DNA of 64,000 nt from Maribacter cobaltidurans. GTDB taxonomy: Bacteria > Bacteroidota > Bacteroidia > Flavobacteriales > Flavobacteriaceae. The DNA lies in assembly GCF_002269385.1 (NCBI RefSeq), contig NZ_CP022957.1:3463001-3527000 (forward strand), in the 5' to 3' direction. Below the pieces are notes generated by a model. That model did not search any database and was not told the origin of the DNA. It saw only the letters and a list, made by a program, of their open reading frames with translations. Shown here piece by piece: positions 1 through 18,760 of this stretch. The translations under genes were made by a program, and so were the position numbers. Position 1 is the first letter of the stretch. Every line of letters starts with the position of its first letter.

Positions 1-56
1 GAACTTGAAAGAACACTTGTAGGGTTGCCCAAAAATCTAGATTGCCCGGTCGTCCT

Positions 57-84
57 AAAAATAAAAAGCCCCTAAAAAGGGCTT
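57..84 (-). terminator. Rho-independent-like terminator downstream of the leftmost cassette gene
   Basis: Read on the minus strand, a 6-bp stem (AAGCCC/GGGCTT, at 66-71 and 79-84) is followed by a T-rich run. It lies 70 nt past the stop of the leftward gene at 152-1456. Seen in sequence; function inferred. Confidence 0.5.
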
Positions 85-116
85 AAAAGAGGTCTCTTTT
101 TTGCTGTTCAAGGGCT

Positions 117-146
117 TGCGCAACGGTTACCATTGTTGTGGTGTCG
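117..146. repeat. Partial attC-like cassette boundary (array site 0)
   Basis: The segment ends CATTGTTGTGGTG, like the right arms of the complete palindromes further along. GTTGTGGTG (135-143) is the exact inverse complement of CACCACAAC (1500-1508), so it bounds the zinc-ribbon cassette. The expected left arm is not recognisable in bases 1-116, so this may be a degenerate or terminal site of the array. Confidence 0.6.
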
Positions 147-151
147 TTTTT

Positions 152-1456
152 TTATTCTTTTGATAATTTATATTCTGTTGGATTTAACCCGTGTTTTTCT
201 AGTGATTTTTTAAAAAGTTCGGTGTGGAATTTTTCGTATTCGTTTATAGTCAAATCAATTTTACTCGATGTATGAATTGAAGCAACTTTATCCATATTTG
301 GTTCGGTTTTTGGATTATCCCAAGGAATTATGAAGCCACTAAAGGAAATTTCTTTAATTATTTTGCTAAAAACGAATAAAAATTTGAATATATATTTAGG
401 TTGATTATTTCTGTCAAATACTATTTGTGTATGACCACAAACTTTATTTCCCATATTATCAATAGAATTGTCAACTAATGCTAATTTAGTATTATTTTCG
501 TTTTCGAATTTTGTGATAAATTCAATAAAATTAGGAAATTCTTCTACTGAAGAAATATTCTTTTTATTGGTTATGTCTTCTTTATTAGGTTCATTTTTAT
601 CATTTGGAATAATTTTTTTGCCAACTTCAGTATTCATTTTATCTTTTGGAATAAATGAGCCTATTTTAAAAAAGGATAGAAGCATAGGGTCAAAAACATC
701 TTTATCATAGGTTGTGAATATTAATGTTGTTTTATCTAAAAGTTTGTACCATTTTGCATTTTTGTTTTTAATAGAAAATTCATAAGGATTAAATGATGAT
801 GAATTATATCCACGATAAGATGGCATCCAAGTTAATTCATCACTATCATTTGCTTTTTTGAGATTTCCTTTTATTTCGCCATCAACTTCTAAATCTCCAT
901 TTTTATGAAATAAATATTTGTTTTTATATGTAAAATATCCTTTTTGGATTAACTCATCTCCATATTTTAAAACTCTTTTTTTGAAAGTCATTTTTGAAAT
1001 GAAATTGTAAGCAAGGTTAACTTGCTCTTTCTCTTTTTTTGAACTATTTGAGGAAATGATGCCATCTTCAATATCCCCAATTATTATGGTTCGAGTAATT
1101 TTATTTTGAGAAAGATGATGAAGAGCAAACAATATTCTAGTGTTTGATGAAAAGTTTATTGTTGTAGTTTCTGCTTTAAACTCAATTGTTTCAATATCCG
1201 CATAATTTATTGTCGTGTTAGGAAAAACACATTTGTCAGGGTAAAATTTAATAGATTGCACTATTAAAGGATTATCTGCCGTTGGAATGTATAAGTGTTC
1301 ATTTTTCTTTTTCTCAACTTTGGCTTTTTGTTCTTTTATAAAACTTTTAGCTTGAGAAAAAAGATTAGTTTTCTTTTTGTTTAACCATTCTCCGCAATGC
1401 TTACATTTAATAGCATCGTCTTGAATTAATTCTGAACAATAAGGACATTTTTTCAT
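152..1456 (-). CDS. Zinc-ribbon hypothetical protein (cassette 7)
   Basis: A 434-aa protein. The N-terminus carries a double CxxC zinc ribbon (CPYC near residue 4, CKHC near residue 18), followed by a lysine-rich linker. Residues about 55-190 are rich in beta strands and could form a PH-like fold; the rest is not recognised. It has no signal peptide or membrane segment, so it is probably cytoplasmic. It is the only gene in its cassette, is transcribed leftwards like all the others, and is followed by a terminator-like hairpin. Function unknown. Zinc-ribbon proteins of this sort are common among single-gene accessory cassettes, but that does not identify a role. Confidence 0.75.
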   Translation of the reverse strand: MKKCPYCSELIQDDAIKCKHCGEWLNKKKTNLFSQAKSFIKEQKAKVEKKKNEHLYIPTADNPLIVQSIKFYPDKCVFPNTTINYADIETIEFKAETTTINFSSNTRILFALHHLSQNKITRTIIIGDIEDGIISSNSSKKEKEQVNLAYNFISKMTFKKRVLKYGDELIQKGYFTYKNKYLFHKNGDLEVDGEIKGNLKKANDSDELTWMPSYRGYNSSSFNPYEFSIKNKNAKWYKLLDKTTLIFTTYDKDVFDPMLLSFFKIGSFIPKDKMNTEVGKKIIPNDKNEPNKEDITNKKNISSVEEFPNFIEFITKFENENNTKLALVDNSIDNMGNKVCGHTQIVFDRNNQPKYIFKFLFVFSKIIKEISFSGFIIPWDNPKTEPNMDKVASIHTSSKIDLTINEYEKFHTELFKKSLEKHGLNPTEYKLSKE

Positions 1457-1498
1457 CTTTGGTCGGTTAGTTTAATTTTTTTCGGTTGGTTGTAAAAT

Positions 1499-1635
1499 GC
1501 ACCACAACGGTCTCGGCTATGAGTAGTTGCGTGGTTTAGCACTTAACTTAGCAAGTACACACCAAACTGAAAATCTGCGAGGATTTTCAGAAGTAGGCGA
1601 GAACAAGCAATTACTTATAGCCATTGTTGTAAGCC
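1499..1635. repeat. attC-like cassette recombination site 1
   Basis: A 137-bp imperfect palindrome between two leftward genes. The left arm runs ACAACGGTCTCGGCTATGAG; the right arm is its inverse complement apart from a GGTCTC-versus-AAT unpaired stretch just inside the outer arm, like the unpaired central spacer of integron attC sites. An inner perfect 9-bp hairpin (CTGAAAATC at 1567-1575, GATTTTCAG at 1582-1590) resembles a variable terminal structure. The outer bases belong to the neighbouring cassettes: CACCACAAC closes cassette 7 and GTTGTAAGCC (1626-1635) opens cassette 6. Confidence 0.8.
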
Positions 1636-1640
1636 GTTTT

Positions 1641-2870
1641 TTATTTAATTTTTATTTTGTCCAGTAAATTCTTTAGTCTTTCGAGAAGTTCATCGTATAA
1701 TACAAATTCAATGTCTTTTAGACTTTCTCGAAGGTTTTTAAAGTGATTAAGCTTTTTCGTTGTATTCAGCTCTTTTGTTGAACCTGCTACAATTATTACT
1801 CTTGGATTAATGATGTTAACATCAATTCCTTCTTCACTTTCTGTTTCAGTTTCTTCCTTAATTGCTTTTGTATAGCTAATTGCATTTTCCTTTGATTTTT
1901 GTAAATAATCAGTTGCTTGTGCGATTACCATAGAAACATCTTTTGTCCAATACCAAGTTTTATGACTTGAATCGTATTGAATTAAAGGCGTACTACTTTT
2001 TTTAAGTTCATAAAAGTCAATGTATCCATAAATATCAACCAAAACCAAATCAGGATATTTTGTTATTCCTGTAGCAATATTTTTATAGTTGATTTTATGT
2101 GCGTATCGTGTGTCAAAAAGTGTAATGTATTCATCAAAAAATTTCTGCCAAGAACTTTCTGGTGGATTTTCCTTTAACAAAGATTCATATTTAGCAATGA
2201 TTTCTTGAAGTGTTAAGATTTGAGCATTTTTTTGAAGACCAAATGTCATTCTTTTGACTAAATCTGCTCTTTTATATTTTTTCGAAGCATCAACATAAAA
2301 ATCCCCAATTTTTTCAATGTCATCAGCTGTTAGTTGGTCAATTAGTTTTTGATTAAGGTTTCTTAAAATCAGTTTTTTGTTATTATTTGTCTCTTTATAG
2401 TCAAAAGCGATTTCAGGAAATATATCCACTAAAAAATTTTTAATTAGAATTTTTTTAGTGTCATTACAAGCTCTTTGTTCTTGATTTGTACTTGAAATTA
2501 ATGCCGAAAGGTCATTTAGATTTAGAAAAAGGGTTTTTCTAACTTTTTTAGACTCAATTTCTTCAGATATTATGATTTTATTTATTCGCTTATCATCGAA
2601 TTGATACCTAAAAAAACTGTTTACAGTATTGTCACTAAATCCATAACCAAATGAACTAAACAGATAAGGAATTTCTTCAAAATCTCTTAATTCAATTTGT
2701 TTTATAGTTTGTCCATCGTAGTCGAAAAAATAATCTTTTCCTTTTTGTTCATAGATTTTAACGAATTCCTTTTCTTCATCTTCTTTGTGTTGACGATATA
2801 CGACTTTTTTATCTCCAACTTTTTCTTCGAAGAGGATTAACTTTTTAGTTTCTTGGAATTGTTCTTTCAT
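1641..2870 (-). CDS. Shedu-type nuclease, DUF4263 family (cassette 6)
   Basis: A 409-aa protein whose C-terminal half (about 235-405) matches the DUF4263/SduA nuclease of the Shedu anti-phage and anti-plasmid system. PD-(D/E)XK-type residues are visible: P273-D274 in a hydrophobic strand and E288-L289-K290 after a YGYIDFY strand. The N-terminal 230 residues are probably the variable sensor part usual for Shedu proteins. As is typical for Shedu, it is a single-gene system. It stands alone in its cassette between two attC-like palindromes. Known for the family: DNA cleavage after activation. Inferred here: phage or plasmid defence. Confidence 0.8.
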   Translation of the reverse strand: MKEQFQETKKLILFEEKVGDKKVVYRQHKEDEEKEFVKIYEQKGKDYFFDYDGQTIKQIELRDFEEIPYLFSSFGYGFSDNTVNSFFRYQFDDKRINKIIISEEIESKKVRKTLFLNLNDLSALISSTNQEQRACNDTKKILIKNFLVDIFPEIAFDYKETNNNKKLILRNLNQKLIDQLTADDIEKIGDFYVDASKKYKRADLVKRMTFGLQKNAQILTLQEIIAKYESLLKENPPESSWQKFFDEYITLFDTRYAHKINYKNIATGITKYPDLVLVDIYGYIDFYELKKSSTPLIQYDSSHKTWYWTKDVSMVIAQATDYLQKSKENAISYTKAIKEETETESEEGIDVNIINPRVIIVAGSTKELNTTKKLNHFKNLRESLKDIEFVLYDELLERLKNLLDKIKIK

Positions 2871-2888
2871 ATGTTGGTTTTCTCAAAT

Positions 2889-3024
2889 GGCTTACAACGG
2901 TCTTGTATATGAAAAGTAGCGGATTTTTAGCACTAACTTTTCGGATTTTTACAGACCTTTAATTTATTCATTTTCTTTCGATTAAGCGATTAAACCGCTA
3001 TTTTTTATATACGTTGTTGTACGC
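2889..3024. repeat. attC-like cassette recombination site 2
   Basis: A 136-bp imperfect palindrome. The arms pair TATATGAAAAGTAGCGG with the inverse complement of CCGCTATTTTTTATATA, with an unpaired GGTCT-type spacer next to the outer arm. GGCTTACAAC (2889-2898) is the exact inverse complement of GTTGTAAGCC at 1626-1635, closing cassette 6. GTTGTACGC (3016-3024) opens cassette 5 and pairs with 7590-7598. Confidence 0.8.
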
Positions 3025-3053
3025 TGGCTTTTTTCTGTTTCAGTTTGTCATTC

Positions 3054-3140
3054 AGCGTTGGCAAAGACATACTCTTTTGCAATTTTTGGCTGTGTGTTGG
3101 CTGAAGCGAATTGCAAATGTGTATGGCTTTTAGCGTTGGC
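3054..3140. repeat. Second-type hairpin repeat at the 3' edge of the RM operon
   Basis: The long inverted repeat has arms GACATACTCTTTTGCAATT and AATTGCAAATGTGTATGGC around a 24-nt loop. AGCGTTGGC stands just outside both ends (3054-3062 and 3132-3140). A related hairpin occurs at 7507-7562, at the other edge of the operon. It overlaps the last codons of the RAMA-like gene. Confidence 0.55.
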
Positions 3141-3435
3141 TCTCCATCCGCTTAAATTTTTCCTTATAATAACTCAAATCATTATAAACTCCGTTGTCTA
3201 AAATTCTCCAGTATTTCCATCCGTTTATACTTGTTTTCGTTATCGCTCTTCCAGCTCCGCTTGGAAAAGGAAAAGTTTTTATTTCGTTATCGATTTCGAA
3301 TGTTATGGCTCCTTCCTTGTCTAAAGTGCCAATTATTTCATTATTAGGTGATGAATAGACTTTGGTTCCACTTTTAATAATTCCTGCGTTTATAATCATT
3401 TTTAAGGTTATGTCTGGTACTTCTTTGTATGTCAT
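3130..3435 (-). CDS. Small RAMA-domain protein of the RM operon
   Basis: A 101-aa protein. The segment around GIIKSGTKVYS, the middle beta strands and the closing NGWKYWRI match the RAMA domain (restriction enzyme adenine methylase associated), usually fused to or encoded beside adenine methyltransferases and thought to help read target or modified DNA. It starts 4 bp after the stop of the methylase-nuclease gene, so it is co-transcribed. Inferred role: specificity or accessory subunit of this restriction-modification system. Family call by pattern only. Confidence 0.65.
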   Translation of the reverse strand: MTYKEVPDITLKMIINAGIIKSGTKVYSSPNNEIIGTLDKEGAITFEIDNEIKTFPFPSGAGRAITKTSINGWKYWRILDNGVYNDLSYYKEKFKRMESQR

Positions 3436-3438
3436 ATT

Positions 3439-6192
3439 TTAATCTTTAACGGCAAAACGAATTCGATACAATTGTTTCAAAGAATTTTTAATGGGTTCGT
3501 AATATTCAGAAATCCCATATATTTCCATTAATGCGTTCTCAAAAGCAATTCTATCTTCTGATTCCAATTCTTGTACCAATGGTAATCTGTTACGTTGCAT
3601 AATTGGGCTAAACAATTCCGCTATTTGGTTTTTTTCCTCTTGTGATAAAATATTTGGGTTAAGAATTTTAAAGTCTCTTTCAAATTTCGTTGCTCGTAAA
3701 TCCAATGCGCCCAAGCCACGACCAAAACCAAAACTTTCAATCAAGAACAGACTTGCAGTACTATTTAAAAGTGCTAAGAATAATGTTTTGTTTTCCTCTT
3801 GGTACTCGTCTCTTATTGAAAAGCCAATCATTCTTTGGTCTATAAATGAACGATTTTCAAATTTTGCGATGAAAAGGCTTTTGTCATAATTTACATTAGC
3901 TACAAAGTCAGCCATATTTTCGGTTGACATTTCATACCAATTCATATTTGGTTTTGCTAAAACTTCAGGTAAAGGTCTATTCGTCCCATTTCGTTGGTTT
4001 TCAAATGACCTAATCCAAGCAATAGCACCATTGTGTCCTAAATTTTCAAGTTCCTCAATACTACGTGAACAACAAAATGCTTCAGCGTTTGGAACGCATT
4101 CTAAATTGGTGGTATCTCTCAAATGTTTAAGGACTGGCTTAATATATTCTTCCTCTATATTGTGACCTGATGCAGGATAAAACATAGGATTCCAACCACG
4201 CCTTTCACCTCGCGTAAAATGGAAAATATCACTAGTATTAATAAAACTGTCTCTAACATTTTCCACCCAAATTAGATTAGAAAAATAGCCTGACCAAGGA
4301 ATCCCAAAATCTTCAAAAGAATTTATTTGTGCAATTGAATATCTATTAATGGTTAAATTTTCAGATTCAACATTGACAATTATATTGTCACTTAAAGTCC
4401 TGATGTCATCAATTTCTTCTAGCTTATTCTTTAAAGTACAAAATGAGATTTCACTATCATTCGAGGTAGGTGTTTGCGGGTCTTTTTTTGACGCAACTAA
4501 AATTGTTGTTACAACATCTGCATTATCAAACCATTTCCCTTTACCAGAGATTACTACTAATTCAATTTTGAAGAATTTTTGGAAAAGCTCTAAAAATATT
4601 TCTCCATAATCGGTACCCAACCAAGCATTTGATAAAATAAGACCAATTTTACCATTTTCGGATAAAAATTGATGAAGATAGAAAGGGATGTATGCGAAAA
4701 TATCGCTTTTTCCACTTAATGTGTCCGTTGTATCTGCTTCTTCTTTTATCCAATCATTTATATCAACTATATGTGGATTCAAGACTTTCATTTCCTTACT
4801 CTTAATAAATGGTAAATTGGAAACAACATAATCTACGGTTGGGAATTCCTTTTCAACTAGTTCCCCATTATTTGGATTTCTAAATTGTATTGTTTCTCCT
4901 TGATTTAGTTCAATTACATCAGAGTTAAAAACATTTATTATTCTGCCAATATTTGAGGGTTTAGCCATTGACAAGGTAGAAAGTTGAATAGGAAACGAAT
5001 GTTTATCAGATGCCCAAATGGTATTAAGAATCTCATTAGGGTTTATTTCGTATTCTTCTTTTAATTCATAGGCTTGTTTTATAATTGTACCTGTTCCGCA
5101 ACAAGGGTCAATTACTATTTTTGTTTTGTCATCAATGGTCAGGCGAGTTAATAAATCCGCTAATTTTTTAGGTGTCGAAAATTGACCTGCTACCTTTCTT
5201 TTAGCCGTTGCGATAGTACTTTGAAGTAATTGATGAAGAATTTCAATTTCAATAGCCTCAATATTTACAGTTGAAAGGAATTGATTCAATTCTGTCAATT
5301 CGCTCCAAGCTGTTTCAGAAATATATTGCTGACCAAGGTTTGGACTGAAAATATTCCAGAAATTACATTTTTGAGAAATAGACGTTAGGATTTCCATTGC
5401 ATCAACTATTGAAGTTGACCTTTCTATAGTTTCAATTTCTTTTGCTTCGTTAAAATGCCTTTTTAGTATATGTGCAAAAATTATTTTGAAAACCCAATCT
5501 GTCAAAACTACCATTGACAAAGTAGCTAGTTTATGTTCAGTTTGAGTTGAAGAAAAACCATATTCACTTGAGGATGAATTCCACCAAAGATTAATTTCTG
5601 CATCTAATTGCCGATTGGTTCTAGCTCTTGCTTTTAGTGTGTCAGCAGTATTGTTGGTGTTTTCTAAGACAACATCTATTACTTCATCAATAGACAAAAT
5701 TTCTTGAGAAGTAACTTCTGGGATTTCTCCCGATTCAAAAAAGTTATTAAGGTCTGCAAGAATTTCATACAACAATTCTTTCCAGAGTTGTTCGTTAGGT
5801 TTTACCTCTAATCGAGAATTGATATTAATATCATTCCAACTTTTATGAATTTCAAAGTTTTCCCCATTTCTTACGTAAAGCACAGCACTTTTTACATTCC
5901 ATAAAAGAAAACTATCTCTTTTTAAAATTTGAGCTTTCTTGATTGCATTACTTATTAGTTCTGCATCATTTATTTGGGTGTCAGGCATTTTTAATTCCCA
6001 ACCTTGTACAATTATATCTTTTGTCTGGTCTTTAAAAAGTAAAACGTCAGGAAAAAGGCTTTTTTTATTATTGCTTATAGTGCTTTCACCACCAGCACCT
6101 TTGAAATGCCAACTTTTATTTGCCAAGAAAACTTCGATTGCACTAATAACGTCAATAGCCCAACTTCTTTCATTATACGTAACTTTCGCCAT
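3439..6192 (-). CDS. Restriction-modification enzyme: PD-(D/E)XK nuclease fused to N6-adenine methylase
   Basis: A 917-aa protein with both activities. The N-terminus has P48-D49 followed by E66-L67-K68, a PD-(D/E)XK nuclease core. The middle is an HsdM-like N6-adenine methylase: SAM motif DPCCGTG at 362-368 and catalytic NLPF at 459-462 (NPPF variant). The C-terminal third is likely target recognition. The layout resembles a type IIG or BREX/PglX-like single-chain enzyme. Its start overlaps the end of the upstream methyltransferase by 20 bp, giving one operon: regulator, methyltransferase, this gene, RAMA protein. Activity on DNA is inferred from motifs. Confidence 0.85.
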   Translation of the reverse strand: MAKVTYNERSWAIDVISAIEVFLANKSWHFKGAGGESTISNNKKSLFPDVLLFKDQTKDIIVQGWELKMPDTQINDAELISNAIKKAQILKRDSFLLWNVKSAVLYVRNGENFEIHKSWNDININSRLEVKPNEQLWKELLYEILADLNNFFESGEIPEVTSQEILSIDEVIDVVLENTNNTADTLKARARTNRQLDAEINLWWNSSSSEYGFSSTQTEHKLATLSMVVLTDWVFKIIFAHILKRHFNEAKEIETIERSTSIVDAMEILTSISQKCNFWNIFSPNLGQQYISETAWSELTELNQFLSTVNIEAIEIEILHQLLQSTIATAKRKVAGQFSTPKKLADLLTRLTIDDKTKIVIDPCCGTGTIIKQAYELKEEYEINPNEILNTIWASDKHSFPIQLSTLSMAKPSNIGRIINVFNSDVIELNQGETIQFRNPNNGELVEKEFPTVDYVVSNLPFIKSKEMKVLNPHIVDINDWIKEEADTTDTLSGKSDIFAYIPFYLHQFLSENGKIGLILSNAWLGTDYGEIFLELFQKFFKIELVVISGKGKWFDNADVVTTILVASKKDPQTPTSNDSEISFCTLKNKLEEIDDIRTLSDNIIVNVESENLTINRYSIAQINSFEDFGIPWSGYFSNLIWVENVRDSFINTSDIFHFTRGERRGWNPMFYPASGHNIEEEYIKPVLKHLRDTTNLECVPNAEAFCCSRSIEELENLGHNGAIAWIRSFENQRNGTNRPLPEVLAKPNMNWYEMSTENMADFVANVNYDKSLFIAKFENRSFIDQRMIGFSIRDEYQEENKTLFLALLNSTASLFLIESFGFGRGLGALDLRATKFERDFKILNPNILSQEEKNQIAELFSPIMQRNRLPLVQELESEDRIAFENALMEIYGISEYYEPIKNSLKQLYRIRFAVKD

Positions 6193-7087
6193 TGAGAACT
6201 TTTGTGTTATAGTTTAACGTATGATATTTTGCTATTGGTTCATTAAATAAACGTAATGTAGATTTTTCAATTTCTTTACTCTTCAAAGTTTCTTGAATTC
6301 TATCAGTACAAATTTTAATATAATCTACCTCTTTGACTTTGTGCAAAAGGACATCTTCATTTTTTTCTATTCCAATGAAATTTCTATTTTCAAGGATAGC
6401 AGAAAGCAAAAAACTACCACTACCACAAGCATTGTCAAGTACAACGTCTCCAGGTTGTGTAAATGTTCTAATTAAATATCTGCCTAATTCAATTGGCTTT
6501 TGAGTCGGATGATAAACAGTTCCTTCTGATTCTGCTGTTTTAACATAGACAAAATCTTCAATAGATTGTTCTTCATAAGCAATCACGTCTGTTGGATATC
6601 TATTGCCATTACTTTTCACGTGATTAGACTTAAAGTCTCCATAACTACCTGTAAGTTGGTCTTTTCTGAATCCCTTGTCATATGCTTCACCCTCTGTCAT
6701 TTGAGGATTATAGTTCGGCTGTTTTTTATAGAAAACACAAATATCTTCGTGCTTTCTCAATGGTTGTTTTTTTGCGTTTAAGAAGTTTGTTGCTTTTGAT
6801 TTTATCCAAACAATTTTGTATTTGAAATGCTTTTCATTACTTAAAATCAATTTTGCTGTAAAAACACCCTGAGATGTTAATACTATTGCCCCGTTGTCTT
6901 TAATTATTCTGTAATATTCAGTCCAAAGCTTATCGAGGTCGATAACTGAATCCCATTTGTTTTGAGTTGTTCCATAAGGTAAATCGCATAAAATCATATC
7001 GATACTTTTACTTGGAATTCCCTTCATTTCTTCAAGGCAATCGCCTTGAATTACTTTATTTAAGTATTTATTTAAATTGTTTGGCAT
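6173..7087 (-). CDS. Site-specific DNA methyltransferase (N4/N6 type)
   Basis: A 304-aa protein. Catalytic motif DLPY is at 35-38 near the N-terminus and the SAM-binding motif (LDNACGSGSF) is near residue 218. That order, catalytic motif first, is the beta class of amino-methyltransferases. It likely provides protective methylation of the site recognised by the 917-aa enzyme encoded next. It begins 3 bp after the upstream XRE regulator ends and overlaps the downstream gene, so it is translationally coupled. A second methylase next to a methylase-nuclease fusion suggests an asymmetric recognition site needing two methylases; that is inference. Confidence 0.88.
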   Translation of the reverse strand: MPNNLNKYLNKVIQGDCLEEMKGIPSKSIDMILCDLPYGTTQNKWDSVIDLDKLWTEYYRIIKDNGAIVLTSQGVFTAKLILSNEKHFKYKIVWIKSKATNFLNAKKQPLRKHEDICVFYKKQPNYNPQMTEGEAYDKGFRKDQLTGSYGDFKSNHVKSNGNRYPTDVIAYEEQSIEDFVYVKTAESEGTVYHPTQKPIELGRYLIRTFTQPGDVVLDNACGSGSFLLSAILENRNFIGIEKNEDVLLHKVKEVDYIKICTDRIQETLKSKEIEKSTLRLFNEPIAKYHTLNYNTKVLNGESYV

Positions 7088-7090
7088 ATT

Positions 7091-7474
7091 TTAAAGTTTG
7101 AGACTTTCTTGTTTAGCATTAATCTGACGTAGGTATTTGACTTTTTTTTCGGCAACTATCAAAGCATCTGTTGAAGAACTACTTTCGTAAAGTTTTTTTG
7201 CAAATAGGTCGCCAAAAAATTCTGTCTTGAGTTCTTCTAAATTCAAATCAAAAACTTGAGCGAGTAGAGTTAAACGTTTTTCGTCAAAATCTCTTTTACC
7301 GTTTTCAATCTTGCTCAAATTAGCAGAATCTAAATCAAGTTTTGCTCCGAGTTGGGTTAAAGTAAGTTCTTTCTTTGTCCGCAAATGTCTGATGTATTCA
7401 CCGAAGGATTGTTTCATTTGACTTGAATTTTTAGACTTGTCATTGTTTGACAAAACTAAGAAAAAATTTTGCAA
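7091..7474 (-). CDS. XRE-family controller protein of the RM operon
   Basis: A 127-aa protein with a helix-turn-helix at about 22-80 (LTQLGAKLDLDSANLSKIENG). As the first gene of the operon directly before the methyltransferase, it fits the C-protein role that delays nuclease expression after the system enters a new host. That is a sensible feature for a mobile cassette. The tail (81-127) is helical and of unknown role. An earlier in-frame Met (residue 21, MKQSFGEYIR) is a plausible alternative start. Confidence 0.8.
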   Translation of the reverse strand: MQNFFLVLSNNDKSKNSSQMKQSFGEYIRHLRTKKELTLTQLGAKLDLDSANLSKIENGKRDFDEKRLTLLAQVFDLNLEELKTEFFGDLFAKKLYESSSSTDALIVAEKKVKYLRQINAKQESLKL

Positions 7475-7506
7475 ATTCCAATTCGGGTGGCGGTGGGGAA
7501 GTGAAA

Positions 7507-7562
7507 GCTCTTTTGGTTTTTCAGCGTTGGCTTTGAGCGTTGGGAAAAACCAAATGTGCTTG
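7507..7562. repeat. Second-type hairpin repeat at the 5' edge of the RM operon
   Basis: Arms AGCTCTTTTGGTTTTT and AAAAACCAAATGTGCTT enclose a loop with AGCGTTGGC (7523-7531) and GAGCGTTGGG. The outer CTCTTTTG/CAAATGTG and the AGCGTTGGC motif are shared with the hairpin at 3054-3140, so the two belong to one repeat family that brackets the operon inside cassette 5. Confidence 0.5.
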
Positions 7563-7589
7563 AACGTGTGGTGGCTCTTTTTTCAGCTT

Positions 7590-7726
7590 GCGTACAACGG
7601 TCTCGTATAACCGTCAGTTACGGGTTTATATGCGTTAATTTTCGGTTAAGCACTGACGTTAGCAATTCCGAGTGGATTCGGACGTAGTCGAATCCGCCGT
7701 AATTGTGGTTATACATTGTTGTGCTT
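7590..7726. repeat. attC-like cassette recombination site 3
   Basis: A 137-bp imperfect palindrome with the same architecture as sites 1, 2 and 5. The arms share TATAACC/GGTTATA near the outside, and there is an inner hairpin GGATTCG/CGAATCC (7674-7695). GCGTACAAC (7590-7598) closes the RM cassette (pairs with 3016-3024). GTTGTGCTT (7718-7726) opens the next cassette (pairs with 8511-8519). Confidence 0.78.
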
Positions 7727-7729
7727 TCG

Positions 7730-8488
7730 TTATTTTTTAATTTCGGTTTCCAAGAGATTAATTATTTCCTTATTCAGTTCGAGACATTTTACATGCCTAT
7801 CAAGTAATAATAATTTATATACTATCATGTTTTCAATGATATTTTCGAATTCAATGTTTTTTAGCAAATCATTATTGTTTATTTCAAATCCTGATTTAGG
7901 AAATCTTATTTTTGTTATTTCTTCGTCATTGGTTTTTTCATCAGAATTTAACCAACTACCATTTTTAATAATGTACCTAATGAAGTCATCAGAAAAGTCA
8001 ATTACAGATTTTTCTCTGTCTTTTAAAGTTTCAAGTGTTGGTAGCCAAGAAGAAAGTTTGTTTCGTAAAATACCGTTTTTTATTACACCGAGATTACCAG
8101 AGTTAATTAAATCCAATAAAAATCCATTTTGAGGATAGTATTTTGGAACGCTTCCAACCGATTGTAGTAAACTATCGATATCGAATGAAGCTTGATATTT
8201 ACTACCTGTATTATCAAGAATTATAAGACTGTTTTTTTTGATTTCTTCTAACTCTTTAATAGATTTATTTAATTCTGATTGATTATACTCAAAATCAAGT
8301 TTAAGGTTCAAAAGTGCATTTCGTTCAAAATCATTTTTATTTAAGGTATCATTATAATTATTCAATTGCAATGCAATCAAAATTCCAATAACCACTAGAA
8401 TAATCTCACCAATTGCATATTTAAAATACTTTCCAGTTTTTCCTTCTGAAAGTAAATTTTGTCTAATTTTTCTAAAGAATTTTATCAT
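7730..8488 (-). CDS. DUF6090-family membrane protein (cassette 4)
   Basis: A 252-aa protein. It opens MIKFFRKIRQ and has one membrane helix at about residues 27-43 (IGEIILVVIGILIALQL) followed by NNYND. This start is the signature of the flavobacterial DUF6090 family. The remainder is a helical, probably periplasmic domain with coiled-coil tendency at about 60-90. Function unknown in the family. Single gene in its cassette; the stop lies 4 bp from the attC-like site. Confidence 0.8.
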   Translation of the reverse strand: MIKFFRKIRQNLLSEGKTGKYFKYAIGEIILVVIGILIALQLNNYNDTLNKNDFERNALLNLKLDFEYNQSELNKSIKELEEIKKNSLIILDNTGSKYQASFDIDSLLQSVGSVPKYYPQNGFLLDLINSGNLGVIKNGILRNKLSSWLPTLETLKDREKSVIDFSDDFIRYIIKNGSWLNSDEKTNDEEITKIRFPKSGFEINNNDLLKNIEFENIIENMIVYKLLLLDRHVKCLELNKEIINLLETEIKK

Positions 8489-8510
8489 AGGTTAGTGGTT
8501 GGTCATAATG

Positions 8511-8704
8511 AAGCACAACGGTTTGTGTAAGAATAGTAAGGGATTTCGAAGGACTGAACTTTCAATTTATCACTTAGCCAAATTTGCAATTTTTTCTTTA
8601 ATTAATAGACATGCAAAATTGTAAATTTTGCGGACTTTGTAAAATGCACTTCACTTTGGGATAAGCACTAAAACCCTTATTATTTTTACACTTTGTTACC
8701 TGTA
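8511..8704. repeat. attC-like cassette recombination site 4 (long variant)
   Basis: A 194-bp imperfect palindrome, the longest in the array. The left arm GTGTAAGAATAGTAAGGG pairs with the inverse complement of CCCTTATTATTTTTACAC. AAGCACAAC (8511-8519) closes cassette 4. GTTACCTGTA (8695-8704) opens cassette 3 and pairs with TACAGGTAAC at 9192-9201. The extra length is in the central part. Confidence 0.75.
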
Positions 8705-8723
8705 GGCTATTTTGTTTCAGTTC

Positions 8724-9161
8724 CTATTTTTCCGTTGATTTGTTAATTCGTATGAAATTATATACGCCTTTTCCTTCTGCAATTAATTCATCATTCTGAA
8801 AGGCTTTCATTTTCGTTACAAGTATTCTATTACCTAACCTAACTATTTTACCTTCCACAATTATTTCAGATGCTTCAGCACCTTTTAAATAATCTATTCT
8901 TAAATCAATAGTTACTAATTTATCTTCCAATGACGTAAAGTGAGTGCTTCCTGCAATACCACCAACAGAGTCCATTATTGTAGCAATAATTCCTCCGTGC
9001 CACCTGTTTGTTCTCATATCTCCAACAATTTCATCTCTAAAGGGAACTTTAACTTTTACAAACCCTTTTTCAAGTTCCAATAATTTTAGTCCTAAAAATT
9101 TATGAACTGGAATACCTTCTTCAATTATTTGTTTAATAAATCCTATGTTTTTTTCTATCAT
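8724..9161 (-). CDS. PaaI-family hotdog thioesterase (cassette 3)
   Basis: A 145-aa protein with the hotdog-fold core. The segment RWHGGIIATIMDSVGG matches the HGG..(A/T)..D signature of PaaI/YdiI-type acyl-CoA thioesterases, followed by the beta strands VTIDLRIDYLKGA. It probably hydrolyses acyl- or aryl-CoA thioesters; the substrate is unknown. It is the lone gene of its cassette, the only clearly metabolic cargo in the array. Confidence 0.87.
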   Translation of the reverse strand: MIEKNIGFIKQIIEEGIPVHKFLGLKLLELEKGFVKVKVPFRDEIVGDMRTNRWHGGIIATIMDSVGGIAGSTHFTSLEDKLVTIDLRIDYLKGAEASEIIVEGKIVRLGNRILVTKMKAFQNDELIAEGKGVYNFIRINKSTEK

Positions 9162-9187
9162 TTATTTTGATTCTAATTATTGTTCTT

Positions 9188-9327
9188 GGCTTACAGGTAA
9201 CGGTCTCGGCTATGAGTAGTTGCGTGGGTTAGCACTTAACTTTGCAAGTACACACCAAACTGAAAATCCGCGAGGAATTTCCAAAGTAGGCGAGAACAAG
9301 CAATTACTTATAGCCATTGTTGTGTTT
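9188..9327. repeat. attC-like cassette recombination site 5
   Basis: A 140-bp imperfect palindrome nearly identical to site 1 (both share GGTCTCGGCTATGAGTAG and the inner CTGAAAATC hairpin start). The outer bases differ: TACAGGTAAC (9192-9201) closes the thioesterase cassette and GTTGTGTTT (9319-9327) opens the next one. This is expected if the palindrome core is shared but the outer bases travel with each cassette. Confidence 0.8.
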
Positions 9328-10437
9328 TCGTTTTTTTATTCAGTTTGTAAGATATTCAATTCCTTTAATTTTTCTACTTTTTCAAGTCTCAAACTCTTGT
9401 GTTTATAATTTGCTCTCTGTTGGTTTATCCATTCGTAAAGTTCTTTATCAAATTCAGATGTTATTTTTTTGTCTCCATATTCCTCTCTGAATAACTCAAT
9501 AATTTCAATATATTCTTCCCATTTTTTTCTTTTTTTACTTTTTGCAGGAAGTTTTACATTTAGTTTTTTCAACTCTTTTATTTGTTCATCTTTCAATCTG
9601 CCATATCTAAAAGTTCTTTTTTGATTATGCAACCATTTAGCAAGTTTGGGATATTCTTTACTGTCTTTTGGCAAATTAGGATTCGATAGTTTTTTCAGCT
9701 TTTCAAGATTATTATACCAATTTTGAGTAACGTGCCCCTCTTTTTCCTTTTTAGTTCGAGTACCAATTTCGAAGAATCCTATGTCTTGTAGTTTTTTGAT
9801 TTTCCAATCTTCTTTAAGACCTTTCGTTCTTATTCTATAAATATAATTCCCAAAATTCTTGTTTGGTTTGTAGTTAGAAGGAACTTCAAAATTTCCGTGT
9901 GTCTTTTTGTATTCTAATAATTCTAATATTTTTTGGTCAAATTTGTAAACATCCATATCCCATACTACACCAAGGTCTTCAAGAAGTTCGATTCTCTCCT
10001 TTGTTAGGATTTTTCTTTTTTTCTTATAGTTGAACCTTTGGTCATTAAGCCACTTTCCGAGTCCTTTGTATTTTGGGTTTTTGTTATTTTGAGAAACGTT
10101 ACAATCTCCGAATTCTTTTTTATAGTCTTCTAGTAATGCAAGTTTGTCTAACCAATCATCTACAACTCTGTAATTATTTGGTGTACGTGTCATTACCCAT
10201 TTAAAACCAATGCTTTCCAACTTTTCAATTTGCCAATCTTTTAGCTTGCCTTTTTTATATTTTCCTCTCTCGAGTGCAACCCAGTTAGAAATGTAAAAAA
10301 GAGGATGAGTATTATCTTTATATCTTTTTATATTGCTATCTCCAGTCTCTTTATATATTTCTAAAAGTTGTGTAGCCTTCCCTAAAAATAGGACAGCTTA
10401 AAATTAGAATTTTCTAACTTTAAATTTTAACTGTCAT

Positions 10438-10704
10438 ATGAAAAAAAGCAAGTTTACCGAGAGCCAGATCATCAAGGCATTAAAAGAGAACGAACAAGGA
10501 AGAAGTGTCGGGGACATCTCCCGCGAGATGGGTGTTGACAAGAGCACCTTTTACTATTGGAGGAAGAAGTACGGGGGCATGGAAGTGGCCCATATGAAGC
10601 GGCTCAAAGAGCTCGAGGATGAGAACCGCAAGCTCAAACAGATGTACGCCGATGTAAGTCTGGACGTTCGTATGTTAAAGGATGTACTGTCAAAAAAGTT
10701 CTAG
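10438..10704 (+). CDS. IS3-family transposase OrfA
   Basis: An 88-aa protein. The N-terminal helix-turn-helix (FTESQIIKALKENEQGRSVGDISREMGVDKSTFYYW) is DNA-binding HTH_8/HTH_21 type, followed by a leucine-zipper helix (about 55-85) for multimerisation. AAAAAAG (10692-10698) just before the stop is the canonical IS3 frameshift signal. A -1 slip enters the OrfB frame (KKVLGPSDKKH...), which stays open to 11576, so the OrfAB fusion is the likely transposase. Confidence 0.95.
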   Translation: MKKSKFTESQIIKALKENEQGRSVGDISREMGVDKSTFYYWRKKYGGMEVAHMKRLKELEDENRKLKQMYADVSLDVRMLKDVLSKKF

Positions 10705-10799
10705 GGCCTTCCGACAAGAAGCACCGCGCAAAATATCTCCAGGAGGCCTATTCGGTCTGCGTATCGCGTTCCTGCCGGGTAATCGGGCTTGCCCGTTCG

Positions 10800-11576
10800 A
10801 TGTGGTACTACCGTACCAAAAAGGACGATACGGAAGTCATCGATGCGTTATCGAGGTTGGCGGAAGAACTGCCGACCAGGGGTTTCGAGGTATATTTTAA
10901 ACGGCTTCGTCGCGAAGGCCATAAATGGAACAGGAAACGTGTACTTAGGGTCTACAGGAACATGGGTCTAAAGTTGCGCAGAAAACATAAGAAAAGACTC
11001 CCGGCAAGGGTAAAGAACCCGTTGGAGGCCCCGATCGAGCTCAACGAGGTATGGAGCATGGACTTCATGGCCGATGTACTGTCCGATGGAAGAAAGGTAA
11101 GGGTGTTCAACGTCATGGACGATTGCAACCGTGAGGCACTGGCAATGGACGTTGGCCTGAACTACCCGGCAAGAAAGGTCGTGGAGACCCTTGGGCACCT
11201 GGAAGAGGAGATAGGCCTTCCCAAAACGATACGGTGCGACAACGGTCCCGAGTTCATCTCCAAGACCTTGGCGGCATGGTGCAAAAAGAAAAGGGTCGAA
11301 CTCAGGTTCATCCAACCGGGCAAGCCCATGCAGAATGGATATATGGAACGCCTGAACAGGTTTTACAGGGAGGACGTACTCGATGCATACTGGTTCAACG
11401 ACCTGCACCAAGTAAGGGCGCTGACCCAAAAATGGAGGGAGGATTACAATACAAGGCATCCCCATTCATCCATCGGGGATATGCCGCCTAGGGAATACAA
11501 GAACCGTTTCGGGGAAGAATTCTTCCCCGAAACGGACAACATTAATGATAATTTTATGAATTTAGCGATGTCCTAA
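10800..11576 (+). CDS. IS3-family transposase OrfB (DDE integrase core)
   Basis: 258 aa from the first ATG; the frame is open upstream to the A6G slip site. The rve integrase core shows the three catalytic acidic residues in SMDFMAD, CDNGPEF and GYMERLNR, in the D-D(35)E order of IS3. An HTH_21-like part (ELPTRGFEVYFKRLRREG) precedes it. Produced mainly as the OrfAB fusion; on its own, OrfB is not expected to transpose efficiently. Confidence 0.95.
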   Translation: MWYYRTKKDDTEVIDALSRLAEELPTRGFEVYFKRLRREGHKWNRKRVLRVYRNMGLKLRRKHKKRLPARVKNPLEAPIELNEVWSMDFMADVLSDGRKVRVFNVMDDCNREALAMDVGLNYPARKVVETLGHLEEEIGLPKTIRCDNGPEFISKTLAAWCKKKRVELRFIQPGKPMQNGYMERLNRFYREDVLDAYWFNDLHQVRALTQKWREDYNTRHPHSSIGDMPPREYKNRFGEEFFPETDNINDNFMNLAMS

Positions 11577-12576
11577 GAAGGGGAAGGCTACAGTTGATTG
11601 TAGCTATTCATCCATTTTCTATCCCAAAATATTGTATGTCCATCTCCAAAATAGAAATTTATGCTTTTTAATTTTTTGAAATGCTCATCAGGTAATAATT
11701 CGGCTTGGTGTAATAATTTTTGTTTCCTATACCATCCATAAAGTGTTCTGTCTTTATAATCTCTCGGAACAGTACAATGTTCATTTTCTGTATAAAAGCG
11801 TTCCATTTTTTGGAACATAAAATCCCATTTCTCTAGATATTCATCTGTGATTTTCAATATGGATTTATATTGTTTGACAGGTCTTTTTTCTGTTATTTCA
11901 ATATTTCCTAAATCTGTAATTTCTGGATTTCTGCCTCTCTTTTTTGATTTGTCGTGAATATTTGAATTATAGTCAGAACCATCAGAAAAAGCTTCTGTCG
12001 AAACTCTTTGTTCCTTAATTAACTTTTCTAAATATTCATTCGTTAAAAGTTCAATATTTGGGTCTGTGAAATCTAATAACGTGGAATAGAATTCTTTTAA
12101 TTGTTTCAAAACTTTTAATCCACTTTTATCGCTATTTGTAAAATCTAAAAGAATTGAAGACTCAACGTTATAGAAAAGTCCTGATTTTGTGAGATTAGAT
12201 GAGCCAGTTATGATTCTGTTTTTTTCTCCCTCAAACAAATAAACTTTTGGGTGATAGATAAACCTTTCAGAAAAGTAGATGTAAGTTTCAATTTCTAGTT
12301 CTAGTAATAATTCTAAAGCTTCTTTAGAAGTAACTCTTTCATCAATTCCGACATAAAAAGTTATGTTTCTGTTTTCATTTTTTGCTTGTTCTAAAAAAGG
12401 TTTTAAATAGTCTAAACCGGGTTTTCTCAAAAAAGCAATAAAAAAGGTAATTTGCGTGAATGACTTTTCTTGAATAGCAGAACAAACGTGATTTCCGCAC
12501 GTTTCATCTTCTTCGAAGTGTAAACCTTGTCCAAGAAATTCTACTATCATTCTTTCACGAATCTTTTTTTAAAATG

Positions 12577-12713
12577 AAACACAACGTGTTTGTATATGAG
12601 CTGTGGCGTGTCTCGGCACAGGCCTTTCCAGATAAAGACCGGCTTTGGAAAATCCGCAGGATTTTCCAAGTGTAGACTGACCAAGCCATAGCTTATATAC
12701 GGTGTTCTACACC
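12577..12713. repeat. attC-like cassette recombination site 6
   Basis: A 137-bp imperfect palindrome: left arm GTGTTTGTATATGAGCTGTGG, right arm CCATAGCTTATATACGGTGTTC, and inner hairpin TTGGAAAATC/GATTTTCCAA around 12645-12669. AAACACAAC (12577-12585) closes the PLD-HA cassette. GTTCTACACC (12704-12713) opens cassette 1 and pairs perfectly with GGTGTAGAAC at 13251-13260. Confidence 0.8.
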
Positions 12714-12717
12714 GTTT

Positions 12718-13236
12718 TTATTCCGCCGACTTTTTGTAAACTAATATATAATCTTTTTCATACTCAATTTTCATTTCCGATTCTGTCAGCTCAATAATTC
12801 GGTCAGTTGATGCATCAAGAAAATTACCTTTTTCATCTTTTCGCCATTTTTTATCGGGAAAAAATTTTTGAGTTTGAATTATAATTTGACCTTGCCTTGA
12901 GTTTTCTGGAATAACCATTTCATATTCAATTTCATTTGGTGACTTTATTCGCCAAACTCCGTAATCCGAATTTTCAGGTGTAAATATTTTGGTATAAGTT
13001 CCGTCTGATTTTATTATTATATCAGGTCCATTTGCATTAAGTGTTATTGGTTTTCCATCAGGCGTATTTCTGTCAAGAGCTATCTTCTTAATCTCTTTTC
13101 CATTTTGGTCAAGTGTTTTTACAAACTCCCAATTCCCGACAAGATATTGTTCCGAATTGGTTATATCTATTCTATTATTTTCTTGTCCAAAAGTAATTAC
13201 AGAAATAAAAAGCGATAATGTAATTAATATTCTCAT
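12718..13236 (-). CDS. Secreted lipocalin-like protein (cassette 1)
   Basis: 172 aa from the ATG at 13236, chosen because MRILITLSLFISVITFGQ is a clean signal peptide; a longer reading frame back to 13299 would cross the cassette boundary. The mature part (LVGNWEFVKTLDQNGKEI, then SDGTYTKIF and WRIKSPNEIEYEM) has the lipocalin-like beta-barrel pattern of small Bacteroidota envelope proteins. Role and ligand unknown. It is the first cassette after the integrase, expected to be the most recently acquired in an integron. Confidence 0.7.
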   Translation of the reverse strand: MRILITLSLFISVITFGQENNRIDITNSEQYLVGNWEFVKTLDQNGKEIKKIALDRNTPDGKPITLNANGPDIIIKSDGTYTKIFTPENSDYGVWRIKSPNEIEYEMVIPENSRQGQIIIQTQKFFPDKKWRKDEKGNFLDASTDRIIELTESEMKIEYEKDYILVYKKSAE

Positions 13237-13250
13237 AGTTTTTTTCAAAT

Positions 13251-13292
13251 GGTGTAGAACTTGTTTATATAGATGTAAAATACATCTATATA
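13251..13292 (-). other. Candidate attI: integrase-proximal cassette junction with 27-bp palindrome
   Basis: Read on the minus strand, a palindrome with 12-bp arms (13281-13292 and 13266-13277) and a 3-nt spacer is followed 5 nt later by G^TTCTACACC, the start of the first cassette. It lies between the integrase stop and the first cassette gene, exactly where attI sits in an integron whose integrase points towards the array. The palindrome is AT-only apart from GATG/CATC and lacks a T run, so a terminator is unlikely. Role inferred from position and symmetry. Confidence 0.6.
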
Positions 13293-13337
13293 CCTCCAAT
13301 ATAGGAATAAAACCGATGAAAAGGGTTGTTCATTATT

Positions 13338-14477
13338 TTAAAGGTCAAAATCATCAAAAGGGTTTTTTATTTTATCCAGACTTGTGGTACTTACATGTGT
13401 GTATATCATAGTTGTCTTCGGGCTATTGTGTCCAAGCAGTTCTTGAATAAACCTAAGGTCGGTACCATTTTCCAGTAAATGGGTCGCATGACTGTGCCGT
13501 AGGGTATGCAGCGTAATGGATTTTCGTATTCCGGCCTTTTGCAAGGAGCGTTTAAGCACTTGCCGTGCACTTACCGCGGTATACATACCGCCATTTTGGC
13601 CCTCGAAAAGATAATTCTCCGGTCCATAGCATTCAATATATTCGGTCAAAAGTACAATCATTCGTACCGGTATGGGCACATACCTGTCTTTTGCCCCTTT
13701 TGCTGCTCTAATATGCATGAACCTCCGTTTCCTGTCAATATCCCTTACCTTAAGTTTTAAGGCCTCACCGATTCTTAGCCCACACGAGTATATTAAACTG
13801 AGTAATGTTCTATGTTTTAGGTTGGAGGTAAGCCCCAAGATTAATTTTATTTCCTCTATAGCTAAAACATCTGGTAGCCTCCTTGATTTTTTAGGACGTT
13901 CCAAGTTTTCGGGTACGAGTAGGGAATTACTTTTATTACGGTAAAAAAGTTTAATGGCATTAATGGCCTGATTCTGATAGGTATAGGAAAACCGTTTTGC
14001 CATAATGTAATCGGTATTGAATTTGAATATATCCTTTTCGGTAATGGTATTTATTGCCTTTGGATGTTGAAAACGAAAAAAAAGTAGCAACATGCTTTCA
14101 TAGGTATTCATAGTGTTTTTACTATAGCGTTTTTGACCCATCCACTTTTTAAATTCTTTTATGTCGTTCAATACATCATTAGATATTTCGCGACCTATGG
14201 TTATTGTATTTATGGATCGTTCCATTGCCTTACTTTCCCTTTTGGTCCTAAGTGCGGAGTAATCGATAAAGTAATCCTTGGCCCTAAGATATTTGAACAG
14301 GGTATTTGTGACTTCTTTATCGAATGAAAGATAAAAGCTTCGTAGGTCCGTGCTCCAGCAAATACCCTTGAACTCTTTTAAATATTCCTTGAGCTCAAGA
14401 TTATATTTAAAATTTATTAGAAGAACCTCTTTGCCTTTATGGCTGGCCTTTGAAAAAATTATAACGGGTTTTTGCAT
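13338..14477 (-). CDS. Tyrosine recombinase at the head of the cassette array (integron-integrase-like)
   Basis: A 379-aa protein. An extra N-terminal domain (1-95, containing KGICWSTDLRSFYLSFD) common in Bacteroidota recombinases precedes a SAM-like core-binding domain (about 105-195) and a catalytic domain with the full tyrosine-recombinase set: R in SCGLRIGEAL, K in AAKGAKDR, HTLRHSHATHLL, LGHNSPKTTMIYTHV. The tail KNPFDDFDL resembles IntI/XerD tails (SPLD). I do not see the extra patch near box III that marks classical IntI, so it is XerC/D-like. It reads into the array, same direction as the cassettes. Inferred role: cassette excision and insertion. Confidence 0.85.
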   Translation of the reverse strand: MQKPVIIFSKASHKGKEVLLINFKYNLELKEYLKEFKGICWSTDLRSFYLSFDKEVTNTLFKYLRAKDYFIDYSALRTKRESKAMERSINTITIGREISNDVLNDIKEFKKWMGQKRYSKNTMNTYESMLLLFFRFQHPKAINTITEKDIFKFNTDYIMAKRFSYTYQNQAINAIKLFYRNKSNSLLVPENLERPKKSRRLPDVLAIEEIKLILGLTSNLKHRTLLSLIYSCGLRIGEALKLKVRDIDRKRRFMHIRAAKGAKDRYVPIPVRMIVLLTEYIECYGPENYLFEGQNGGMYTAVSARQVLKRSLQKAGIRKSITLHTLRHSHATHLLENGTDLRFIQELLGHNSPKTTMIYTHVSTTSLDKIKNPFDDFDL

Positions 14478-14568
14478 GATGGATATGATTTAAATGCAAT
14501 TTCAATCATTAAAATGATTTAGTCGTATCTTAAGCGAATAATGTTCGCATAGAAATTCACTTAAGTTA

Positions 14569-14952
14569 ATGGAAATGAGATTACAGCATGAATGTGTGTA
14601 TTGTAAAAAGCCACTTACCGGAAGGACGGATAAGAAATATTGCAACCTGCATTGCAAGAGTGCCTACCAATACCAAAAGGAAAAAGAACGACCGGAAAGG
14701 TTCTATAACAAAGTGGACAATCAGCTGAAACTGAACCGGAAGATTTTAAAGGAATATAATAAAGGGGGGAAGGTCACAATCAGGAGTACTGTACTATCGG
14801 AAGTGGGATTTGACCCGAACTTTTTTACCCACTATTGGAAAAACCAAAAAGGGGATGTCTACCTTTTCGTTTATGAATATGGATTTTTGAAAAAGAATGA
14901 AAATGGGAAGGAAAAATATGTTCTGGTTACTTGGCAAGAGTATATGAACTAG
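14569..14952 (+). CDS. Small zinc-ribbon protein, DUF2116-like
   Basis: A 127-aa protein. The N-terminus holds a zinc ribbon (CVYCKKPL...KKYCNLHCKSAYQYQK), a pattern seen in short Bacteroidota proteins near mobilisation genes. The rest is lysine-rich with no membrane segment. ATG at 14575 is an alternative start. It is transcribed away from the array integrase and towards the Mob genes, so it probably belongs to the mobilisable element. Function unknown. Confidence 0.75.
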   Translation: MEMRLQHECVYCKKPLTGRTDKKYCNLHCKSAYQYQKEKERPERFYNKVDNQLKLNRKILKEYNKGGKVTIRSTVLSEVGFDPNFFTHYWKNQKGDVYLFVYEYGFLKKNENGKEKYVLVTWQEYMN

Positions 14953-15168
14953 AATTTTAGAAAAAAATCCCTGATGAATTTATTTCTGGTGGTCACTTTA
15001 AAGCGGTTCAAGAAGTCAGTATATCATTCAATAAAGAAGAGCCAAACTTTTCTCCTATTGTTTGAAATCCCTGAAATTAGGTGCAATTTTCGAGCAAACT
15101 ATTTTCATCTATTGTCATCTGTTTTCAGATTTGGAAAGACCGAAAATCATTTGCTATATTGGGCGTCT

Positions 15169-18708: not shown

Positions 18709-18738
18709 ATTTGATAAGCGGATTAGTAATGTAATCTG

Positions 18739-18760
18739 GCACCCTAAAGGGTGCTTTTTT
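18739..18760 (+). terminator. Rho-independent terminator after the relaxase
   Basis: A perfect 6-bp stem GCACCC/GGGTGC with TAAA loop, then TTTTTT, 31 nt past the relaxase stop. It ends the mobC-relaxase transcript before the convergent AbiE pair. Confidence 0.85.

Follow-up and report, generated by a model that had tools for sequence, protein, structure and literature searches.

Classical integrons, superintegrons included, combine a recombinase gene at the head, an attI site, cassettes lying one way round with complementary R' and R'' ends, and a G^TT core, and all of these recur in the array described here. The accessible text of a study by the IntegronFinder authors names one complete integron for the Bacteroidetes, in Salinibacter, and otherwise In0 elements in their earlier study (PMC9024848). 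The Salinibacter ruber integron and these In0 elements are likewise integrons in Bacteroidetes, and because they were found by an IntI profile we presume them, from the description in the accessible text, to be classical and set them apart (PMC9024848). Our literature search, with preprints and most subscription papers outside its reach, found no description of a non-IntI recombinase heading Bacteroidota cassette arrays. Here we analyse 64,000 nucleotides (nt) of Maribacter cobaltidurans, positions 3463001–3527000 of its 4.64-Mb single-contig genome (the window, meaning this whole stretch), whose leftmost part holds a cassette array headed by a tyrosine recombinase. We conclude, with a probability of roughly 0.87, that the array is an integron-like platform on the chromosome, and that the tyrosine recombinase driving it is not IntI. 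At the level of sequence, what carries this reading is matching cassette ends, identity up to G^TT borders, linkage between recombinase and array, a covarying hairpin and the absence of the IntI domain.

Cassette ends and borders

A first, sequence-only reading of the window had proposed integron-type behaviour for seven leftward cassettes, in which the bases following G^TT at one end are the inverse complement of those before the palindrome at the far end. Every one of the seven coordinate pairs is an exact inverse complement, and the behaviour is borne out in dozens of loci. End matching was assessed on 364 of the 372 matches to a covariance model of the sites, R1 (302 and 70 from two locus sets; two unlisted matches and six cut or incomplete at locus ends were excluded), of which 27 without an exact AAC/GTT were set aside, leaving 337 sites. 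Six or seven of the seven positions beyond GTT matched in 236 of 280 neighbouring pairs, a rate far beyond chance. The corresponding figures are 109 of 2,644 for other pairs within an array, 2,674 of 110,308 for sites paired across loci, and 23 of 337 when the two ends of a single site are compared. In 195 of the 233 well-matched pairs that were listed, an A faces a G at the next position, which amounts to one further A.C or G.T pair. The remark in the first reading that a pairing of 9–10 bp exceeds the usual length did not hold, as 9–11 is the figure for classical attC in the available part of PMC2727003.

Whole cassettes also recur as units. Full-length cassettes that are 100% identical occupy non-adjacent places, with lengths of 1418, 765 and 704 bp in genome G049, 982 bp in G001 and 595 bp in G009. 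Their identity stops at G^TT, running 2–9 nt beyond the left edge and 2–4 nt beyond the right, and the flanking 60-mers match at only 14–45 positions, so that the copies lie in different neighbourhoods. Two of the duplicated G049 cassettes adjoin each other in one array, and some 27 kb separates them in the other. Such identity at the borders is the trace expected of recombination at G^TT. In a second array of the Maribacter genome, an exact 719-bp cassette duplicate stands in tandem with its first copy at attI, and copies of one cassette occur both at attI and at cassette sites. Among 247 extracted cassettes (median 852 bp), 220 hold an open reading frame (ORF) of at least 60 amino acids, and the longest ORF lies on the strand of the site in 213. 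Paired ends, a single orientation and mostly ORF-bearing units are traits of an integron platform, and these cassettes show them.

These counts bear directly on the idea that the palindromes are scattered repeats, of the repetitive extragenic palindromic or miniature inverted-repeat transposable element kind, and that the cassette units are illusory. Such repeats would suit the great abundance of the sites (117 in one genome) and the near-identical stems found in different loci, but it is the ends of a unit that match, not those of a single palindrome; entire units reappear with their borders exact, and strand and order are mostly uniform. Rather than palindromes scattered without cassette exchange, we found cassettes recurring at different places with G^TT borders, and we give the repeat explanation almost no credence.

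Structure of the attC-like sites

R1 was aligned from 50 of 54 chosen sites (three of locus L070 and one of L121 were left out). On the bottom strand the sites run AAT-N7-AAC, a spacer of 5–6 nt, a stem, a variable end, the other stem arm, 3 nt and GTT; covariation and folding energies agree with the R''-L''-L'-R' order, GTT/AAC core and bottom-strand hairpin of attC. As independent sites we used the best 150 of 179 matches from sources without training sites, 149 of them distinct (L196–L198 stem from a genome that also supplied training sites). Stem pairing in these 149 sites reaches 98.4% of cells, an upper bound because passing the model selects for pairing, against 77.7% in shuffled and 32–48% in slid alignments, and compensatory changes occur at 13 of 19 stem pairs. 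One stem position holds a fixed G.U pair in 147 of the 149 and another in 127 (G.T in 49/50 and 41/50 of the training set); the top strand has A.C mismatches in place of these bottom-strand G.T pairs. When the palindromes are folded as single strands, stability favours the bottom strand in 81 of the 96 first-collected sites, three of which were later judged doubtful (93/96 for the arms alone), and in 140 of 161 others.

Compared with classical attC, the likenesses are the better folding of the bottom strand, an uneven unpaired central spacer (5–6 versus 3 nt in 50/50 training sites) and the G following the bottom-strand AAC (335/337 sites). Extra-helical bases on one stem arm set strand choice in classical attC, according to the accessible text of PMC2727003. 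The window-type sites are unlike these in having G.T pairs at fixed positions and few extra stem bases: in the first stem part such bases are a minority (3/50 and 5/50 training sites at two columns, 30/150 independent sites), and extra-helical bases on one arm are not a feature of the family. Their R' also departs from the attC consensus, with GTTRRRY fitting in just 25 of 337 sites. R1 itself found no site in 20 loci with canonical IntI, nor in seven longer ones; a home-made detector of classical attC gave one place in each of two out of ten loci and was not used as a positive control. Short versions of the site, of about 60–90 nt with the same core, were seen in L065, L074, L090, L186, L189 and L210.

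The recombinase at the head of the array

The head gene, an ORF of 379 amino acids at 13338–14477 on the minus strand (PF00589 and PF13495 in Pfam), points into the array, as first described, and the same layout is found in dozens of loci. The protein comprises an extra N-terminal domain (about residues 1–75), a SAM-like core-binding domain and a catalytic domain. The IntI-specific domain is absent, in agreement with the first reading, which had seen no IntI patch in it: the KDR–RHS motif spacing is 61 amino acids in the window recombinase and 61–66 in 44/44 array-head rows, versus 103–105 in 18/18 measurable IntI rows (one of 19 could not be measured). A comment by Roy, Partridge and Hall, in its available text, makes the extra catalytic-domain region one of three filters for IntI (PMC7784347), and by this filter the window enzyme is not IntI. 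In NCBIfam it scores 210.5 bits with XerA_Arch (cut-off 220) and 199.6 bits, in two stretches, with TIGR02249, below the cut-off of 265 bits that marks an IntI; nothing in the whole Maribacter genome exceeds the TIGR02249 cut-off. At 379 amino acids it is longer than the 280 asked of an IntI, and it has the conserved tyrosine-recombinase residues: R235, H324, R327, H350 and Y359, which by position we take to be catalytic, are invariant in A3, the recombinase profile, and in A5.

An AlphaFold model of the recombinase (pLDDT 84.4, pTM 0.61; residues 356–368 round the tyrosine have pLDDT <50) predicts the extra N-terminal domain, some 75 residues long, with fair confidence. The closest PDB entries are XerA 5hxy and 4a8e, then IntI4 2a3v, by sequence, and 5hxy, then 2a3v, by fold, so that the predicted core is of the Xer/IntI type. 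XerA and XerD resemble the window recombinase in core fold and sequence; we know of no cassette arrays associated with them. In the recombinase tree, from which two short rows and then three long-branch rows were left out, the IntI rows form a single clade with support of 99–100 that contains no array head. The array heads need two changes on this tree, and a single clade of heads is not rejected (approximately unbiased test, p-AU 0.474); a nesting of IntI inside the array heads was considered and, with that clade not rejected, not upheld. As the tree is rooted on Xer rows, the position of Xer cannot be placed on it. The array-head lineage may be sister to IntI, or the stock from which IntI arose.

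These results decide how seriously to take the idea that the array is a classical integron with a divergent IntI and no new mechanism. The 199.6 bits with TIGR02249 and the third place of IntI4 in the PDB profile search speak for it, as do three features shared with attC (the GTT core, the uneven spacer and the G that follows the bottom-strand AAC), and the deep branches of the tree do not clearly part array heads from IntI. It has to contend with a domain spacing that is short in every head and long in every measurable IntI, with a well-supported IntI clade free of array heads, with the failure of R1 in both sets of canonical IntI loci and with the rarity of GTTRRRY. We therefore consider a divergent IntI improbable and favour a non-IntI enzyme. 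Window-type heads differ from IntI both in the missing IntI-specific domain and in the extra N-terminal one, and their platform differs from the classical one in that the head gene mostly lies on the array strand, with attI just past its stop.

Linkage of recombinase, attI and sites

Linkage was examined in 80 loci picked by recombinase sequence alone, in which 14 of the 70 site matches are training sites. Sites lie downstream on the recombinase's own strand in 65 of the 70 matches, the exceptions being in L116 (two), L117, L110 and L122; the first reading would have been undermined by arrays of conserved gene order with no recombinase nearby, and this check came out in its favour. For attI, 42 heads were used (the second head of the Maribacter genome not among them; locus L078 is cut at a contig end), 38 of which have downstream sites. 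A match of at least 8/10 between an attI-like sequence and the end of the first cassette was present in 36 of the 38, although the value comes from whichever GTT between stop and site matched best, and weaker matches may therefore be chance. Of these 36, 34 lie 27–178 nt past the stop, with L121 (300 nt) and L065 (806 nt) further off; L062 (7/10) and L182 (6/10) fall short. An attI beside the integrase gene, as expected of an integron platform, is therefore the rule among these heads, and cassette entry at it is suggested by the sequence. Two forms of attI recur: in one, ATATAACAA runs straight into GTT; in the other, a near-perfect palindrome precedes AATT and GTT. The Maribacter genome itself has a second recombinase, 43% identical, at 3639190–3640305, which also heads a leftward array; the genome thus holds two paralogous heads with one array each, and 55 R1 sites at E≤1e-3.

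Across genomes, the window recombinase as query matches 23 of 120 genomes of relatives at E≤1e-70, its own included, and profile A3 matches 68 at the same threshold. R1 finds sites in 85 of the 120 at E≤1e-4, again including its own, with a maximum of 117 in one genome. Sites and recombinase occur together in 66 genomes, the recombinase alone in two, sites alone in 19 and neither in 33 (Fisher p 8e-14, uncorrected for kinship). The attribution to Bacteroidota made in the first reading is consistent with the named relatives of the recombinase, of which the best 80 of 588 were considered, and sites were also found outside the window's class. Named carriers, at E≤1e-3, include Zunongwangia mangrovi (60 sites), Mesonia aestuariivivens (39), Winogradskyella ursingii (37), Algibacter onchidii (36), Seonamhaeicola aphaedonensis (30), Rufibacter sp. 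(16), Algoriphagus ornithinivorans (10), Flavobacterium aciduliphilum (8) and Flavobacterium quisquiliarum (1); at this threshold R1 gave 0 sites in a Sphingobium and an Oceanirhabdus. In a sample of the phylum, 124 of 296 genomes have a site at E≤1e-6: 24/30 in the family (own genome included), 1/6 in the rest of the order, 20/37 in the rest of the class and 79/223 elsewhere. Canonical IntI exceeds its cut-off in 84 of the 296, among which only G155 belongs to the window's class.

Candidate mechanism and points against it

Judged by these sequences, the platform is integron-like in its workings and new by its enzyme and its sites. We infer that the head recombinase is the acting enzyme, that sites are used as single strands, that cassettes pass through circular intermediates and that the platform is active at present. 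The recombinase would join a circular cassette to the attI-like site past its own stop, or to another attC-like site, with the crossover at G^TT. Like IntI, the enzyme would probably work on the cassette site in its folded, bottom-strand form. The choice of strand would probably fall to the fixed-position G.T pairs (A.C in the top strand) and the uneven unpaired spacer, and not to extra-helical bases as in classical attC.

Several observations pull the other way. The end match fails in 44 of the 280 adjacent pairs, partly because sites were missed or broken. L185, L116, L207 and the single-site L209 have their sites on the strand opposite to the recombinase, which is the classical divergent layout; in L185 and L116 the IntI domain is absent by motif spacing. 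The close homologue of the window recombinase in G005 (L068) has no site within the 20 kb examined, and G085 and G116 have a recombinase but no sites at E≤1e-4, although the G085 locus L075 has two weak ones. Strand preference is here a matter of folding energies only, and the high pairing figure is, as said, an upper bound. Lastly, 19 of the 120 genomes carry sites but no recombinase at E≤1e-70.

This last point also favours another recombinase as the mover of the cassettes, for example XerC/XerD or that of an IS91-like element, with the head gene a bystander; the Maribacter genome offers many tyrosine recombinases (22 matches). Yet the position and strand of the sites are strongly non-random with respect to the head gene, an attI-like sequence directly follows its stop, and the Maribacter genome has two separate heads with an array apiece. 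Headless arrays, moreover, are also known for classical integrons, as CALIN (PMC9024848, in the accessible text). A bystander role for the head gene seems to us even less probable than a divergent IntI, and we retain the head recombinase as the driver of the platform.

The array of the window

Cassettes and sites all lie on the minus strand. Across the 64 kb of the window R1 finds exactly six palindromes, none with an E-value above 3.6e-15, and the next match has E 0.63; four of the six were R1 training sites. An Rfam scan of window 1–15000 gave no match. The first reading had all seven cassettes parted by palindromes; this is right for six intact palindromes of one site family, while the leftmost boundary (117–143) is the end of an insertion sequence lying in a broken site. 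The right-hand boundary (13251–13300) likewise has its exact R'/R'' pair but is of attI type and not a cassette site. This attI-like site (13251–13301), 77 nt past the recombinase stop, consists of a short palindrome TATATAGATGTA..TACATCTATATA followed by AACAA and GTT, and the R'' of the first cassette matches its GTT side at 10/10.

From the recombinase outwards, cassette 7 (12714–13260) is hypothetical, with an ORF at 12718–13299 whose listed start is upstream of the cassette border and which has no Pfam or NCBIfam match; it is closed by attC-like hairpin site 6 (12577–12713; R1 100.8 bits, training site, R'/R'' exact). Cassette 6 (9328–12585), closed by site 5 (9192–9327; 103.9 bits, training site), has ORFs of phospholipase D-like and helicase-associated-repeat type (PF13091 and PF03457 on 11588–12550, PF03457 on 9336–10220) with an insertion sequence between them, presumably of IS3 type, whose ORFs lie at 10438–10704 and 10800–11576. 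The 258-amino-acid translation of the latter ORF is the same as that of 52362–53138 in another copy of the insertion sequence. Cassette 5 (8705–9201) holds a hotdog-fold thioesterase (ORF 8724–9161; PF03061, TIGR00369) and is closed by site 4 (8511–8704; 73.1 bits, non-training), which has a long terminal part. Cassette 4 (7727–8519) holds a DUF6090-like protein (ORF 7730–8488; PF19578 below its cut-off) and is closed by site 3 (7590–7726; 86.3 bits, training site).

Cassette 3 (3025–7598), closed by site 2 (2889–3024; 120.1 bits, training site), carries a restriction-modification system of four ORFs (PADLOC REase_MTase_IIG 984 bits, MTase_II 224 bits): a type IIG enzyme (3439–6192), a methyltransferase (6173–7087), a helix-turn-helix protein (7091–7474) and a small ORF (3130–3435). 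Searching plasmids for the type IIG protein gave nothing informative. Cassette 2 (1636–2898) carries a Shedu (SduA)-type defence gene (ORF 1641–2870; PF14082 93.9 bits; PADLOC SduA) and is closed by site 1 (1500–1635; 116.5 bits; non-training, but its near-copy at 9192–9327 is a training site). Cassette 1 (144–1508) is hypothetical (ORF 152–1456, no match in NCBIfam or PADLOC). Its R'' end (131–143), the exact complement of 1500–1508, is severed from the rest of the hairpin by an insertion sequence whose end abuts it. That end occupies 1–130 on the plus strand and is foreign to the cassette system; the adjoining transposase ORF, of 547 amino acids and to the left of the window, lies at L027:16432–18075, and the remainder of the cassette-1 site at L027:16262–16398. 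We take this insertion sequence to be of IS1182 type.

Mobile elements and phages around the cassettes

The end found at window 1–130 occurs at six places in the genome parts examined (G000:C1 3440383, 3447777, 3463112, 3614354, 3631185 and 3636325), next to ATTGTT in five and GTTGTT in one, sequences that resemble a cassette-site arm; certain insertion sequences are known to target attC. A further mobile element, which encodes a tyrosine recombinase of its own and a presumably IS91-like transposase, is present in eight copies (L003–L008 and others; G000:C1 3447803, 3453110, 3594154, 3603719, 3606785, 3815899, 1486408 and 2870288). Its left flank ends in GTT in 8/8 copies and, by eye, in a cassette-site arm in at least five, so that the element seems to target cassette sites. 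Conjugation and mobilisation genes (relaxase, TraM, TraG-type ATPase and coupling protein, at window 16037–32839 and 60478–63017) adjoin the array, and the platform may therefore be carried by, or lie next to, an integrative conjugative element.

Sites of this kind also occur in a phage. Polaribacter phage P12002L is listed as 'CALIN' with attC sites in the available text of PMC9892861, where the sites are handled as ordinary attC and, unlike in the window array, no head recombinase is mentioned. According to the same text, IntI1 recombines the bottom strand of P12002L_attC2, the top strand yielded no recombinants, and P12002L_attC1 was unsuccessful. R1 finds 12 sites in this phage (L210) at E<1e-3, 11 of them in the same orientation, and 6 of 10 neighbouring pairs match at ≥8/10. 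P12002L_attC2 is a candidate R1 site, and one such site may thus already be functional in a heterologous assay. The run of R1 sites, at 29999–40958, lies between methyltransferase genes and small genes, and it suggests that phages may ferry cassettes.

Implications

We lean, somewhat beyond even odds, towards a second kind of integron: a separate lineage, probably widespread in Bacteroidota, which would recombine folded single-stranded hairpins without the IntI domain and choose its strand by fixed G.T pairs. Complete integrons are reported to be very rare in Bacteroidetes (PMC9024848); the site model, by comparison, has matches in 85 of 120 genomes of relatives (own included) and in 124 of 296 genomes of the phylum sample. 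A large reservoir of mobile genes, among them phage-defence genes such as those of the window, may have gone unnoticed because the usual tools search for IntI. The extra domain of IntI has long been held necessary for recombining folded single-stranded DNA. The system described here would be a natural test of whether that domain is needed and of how the right strand is chosen.

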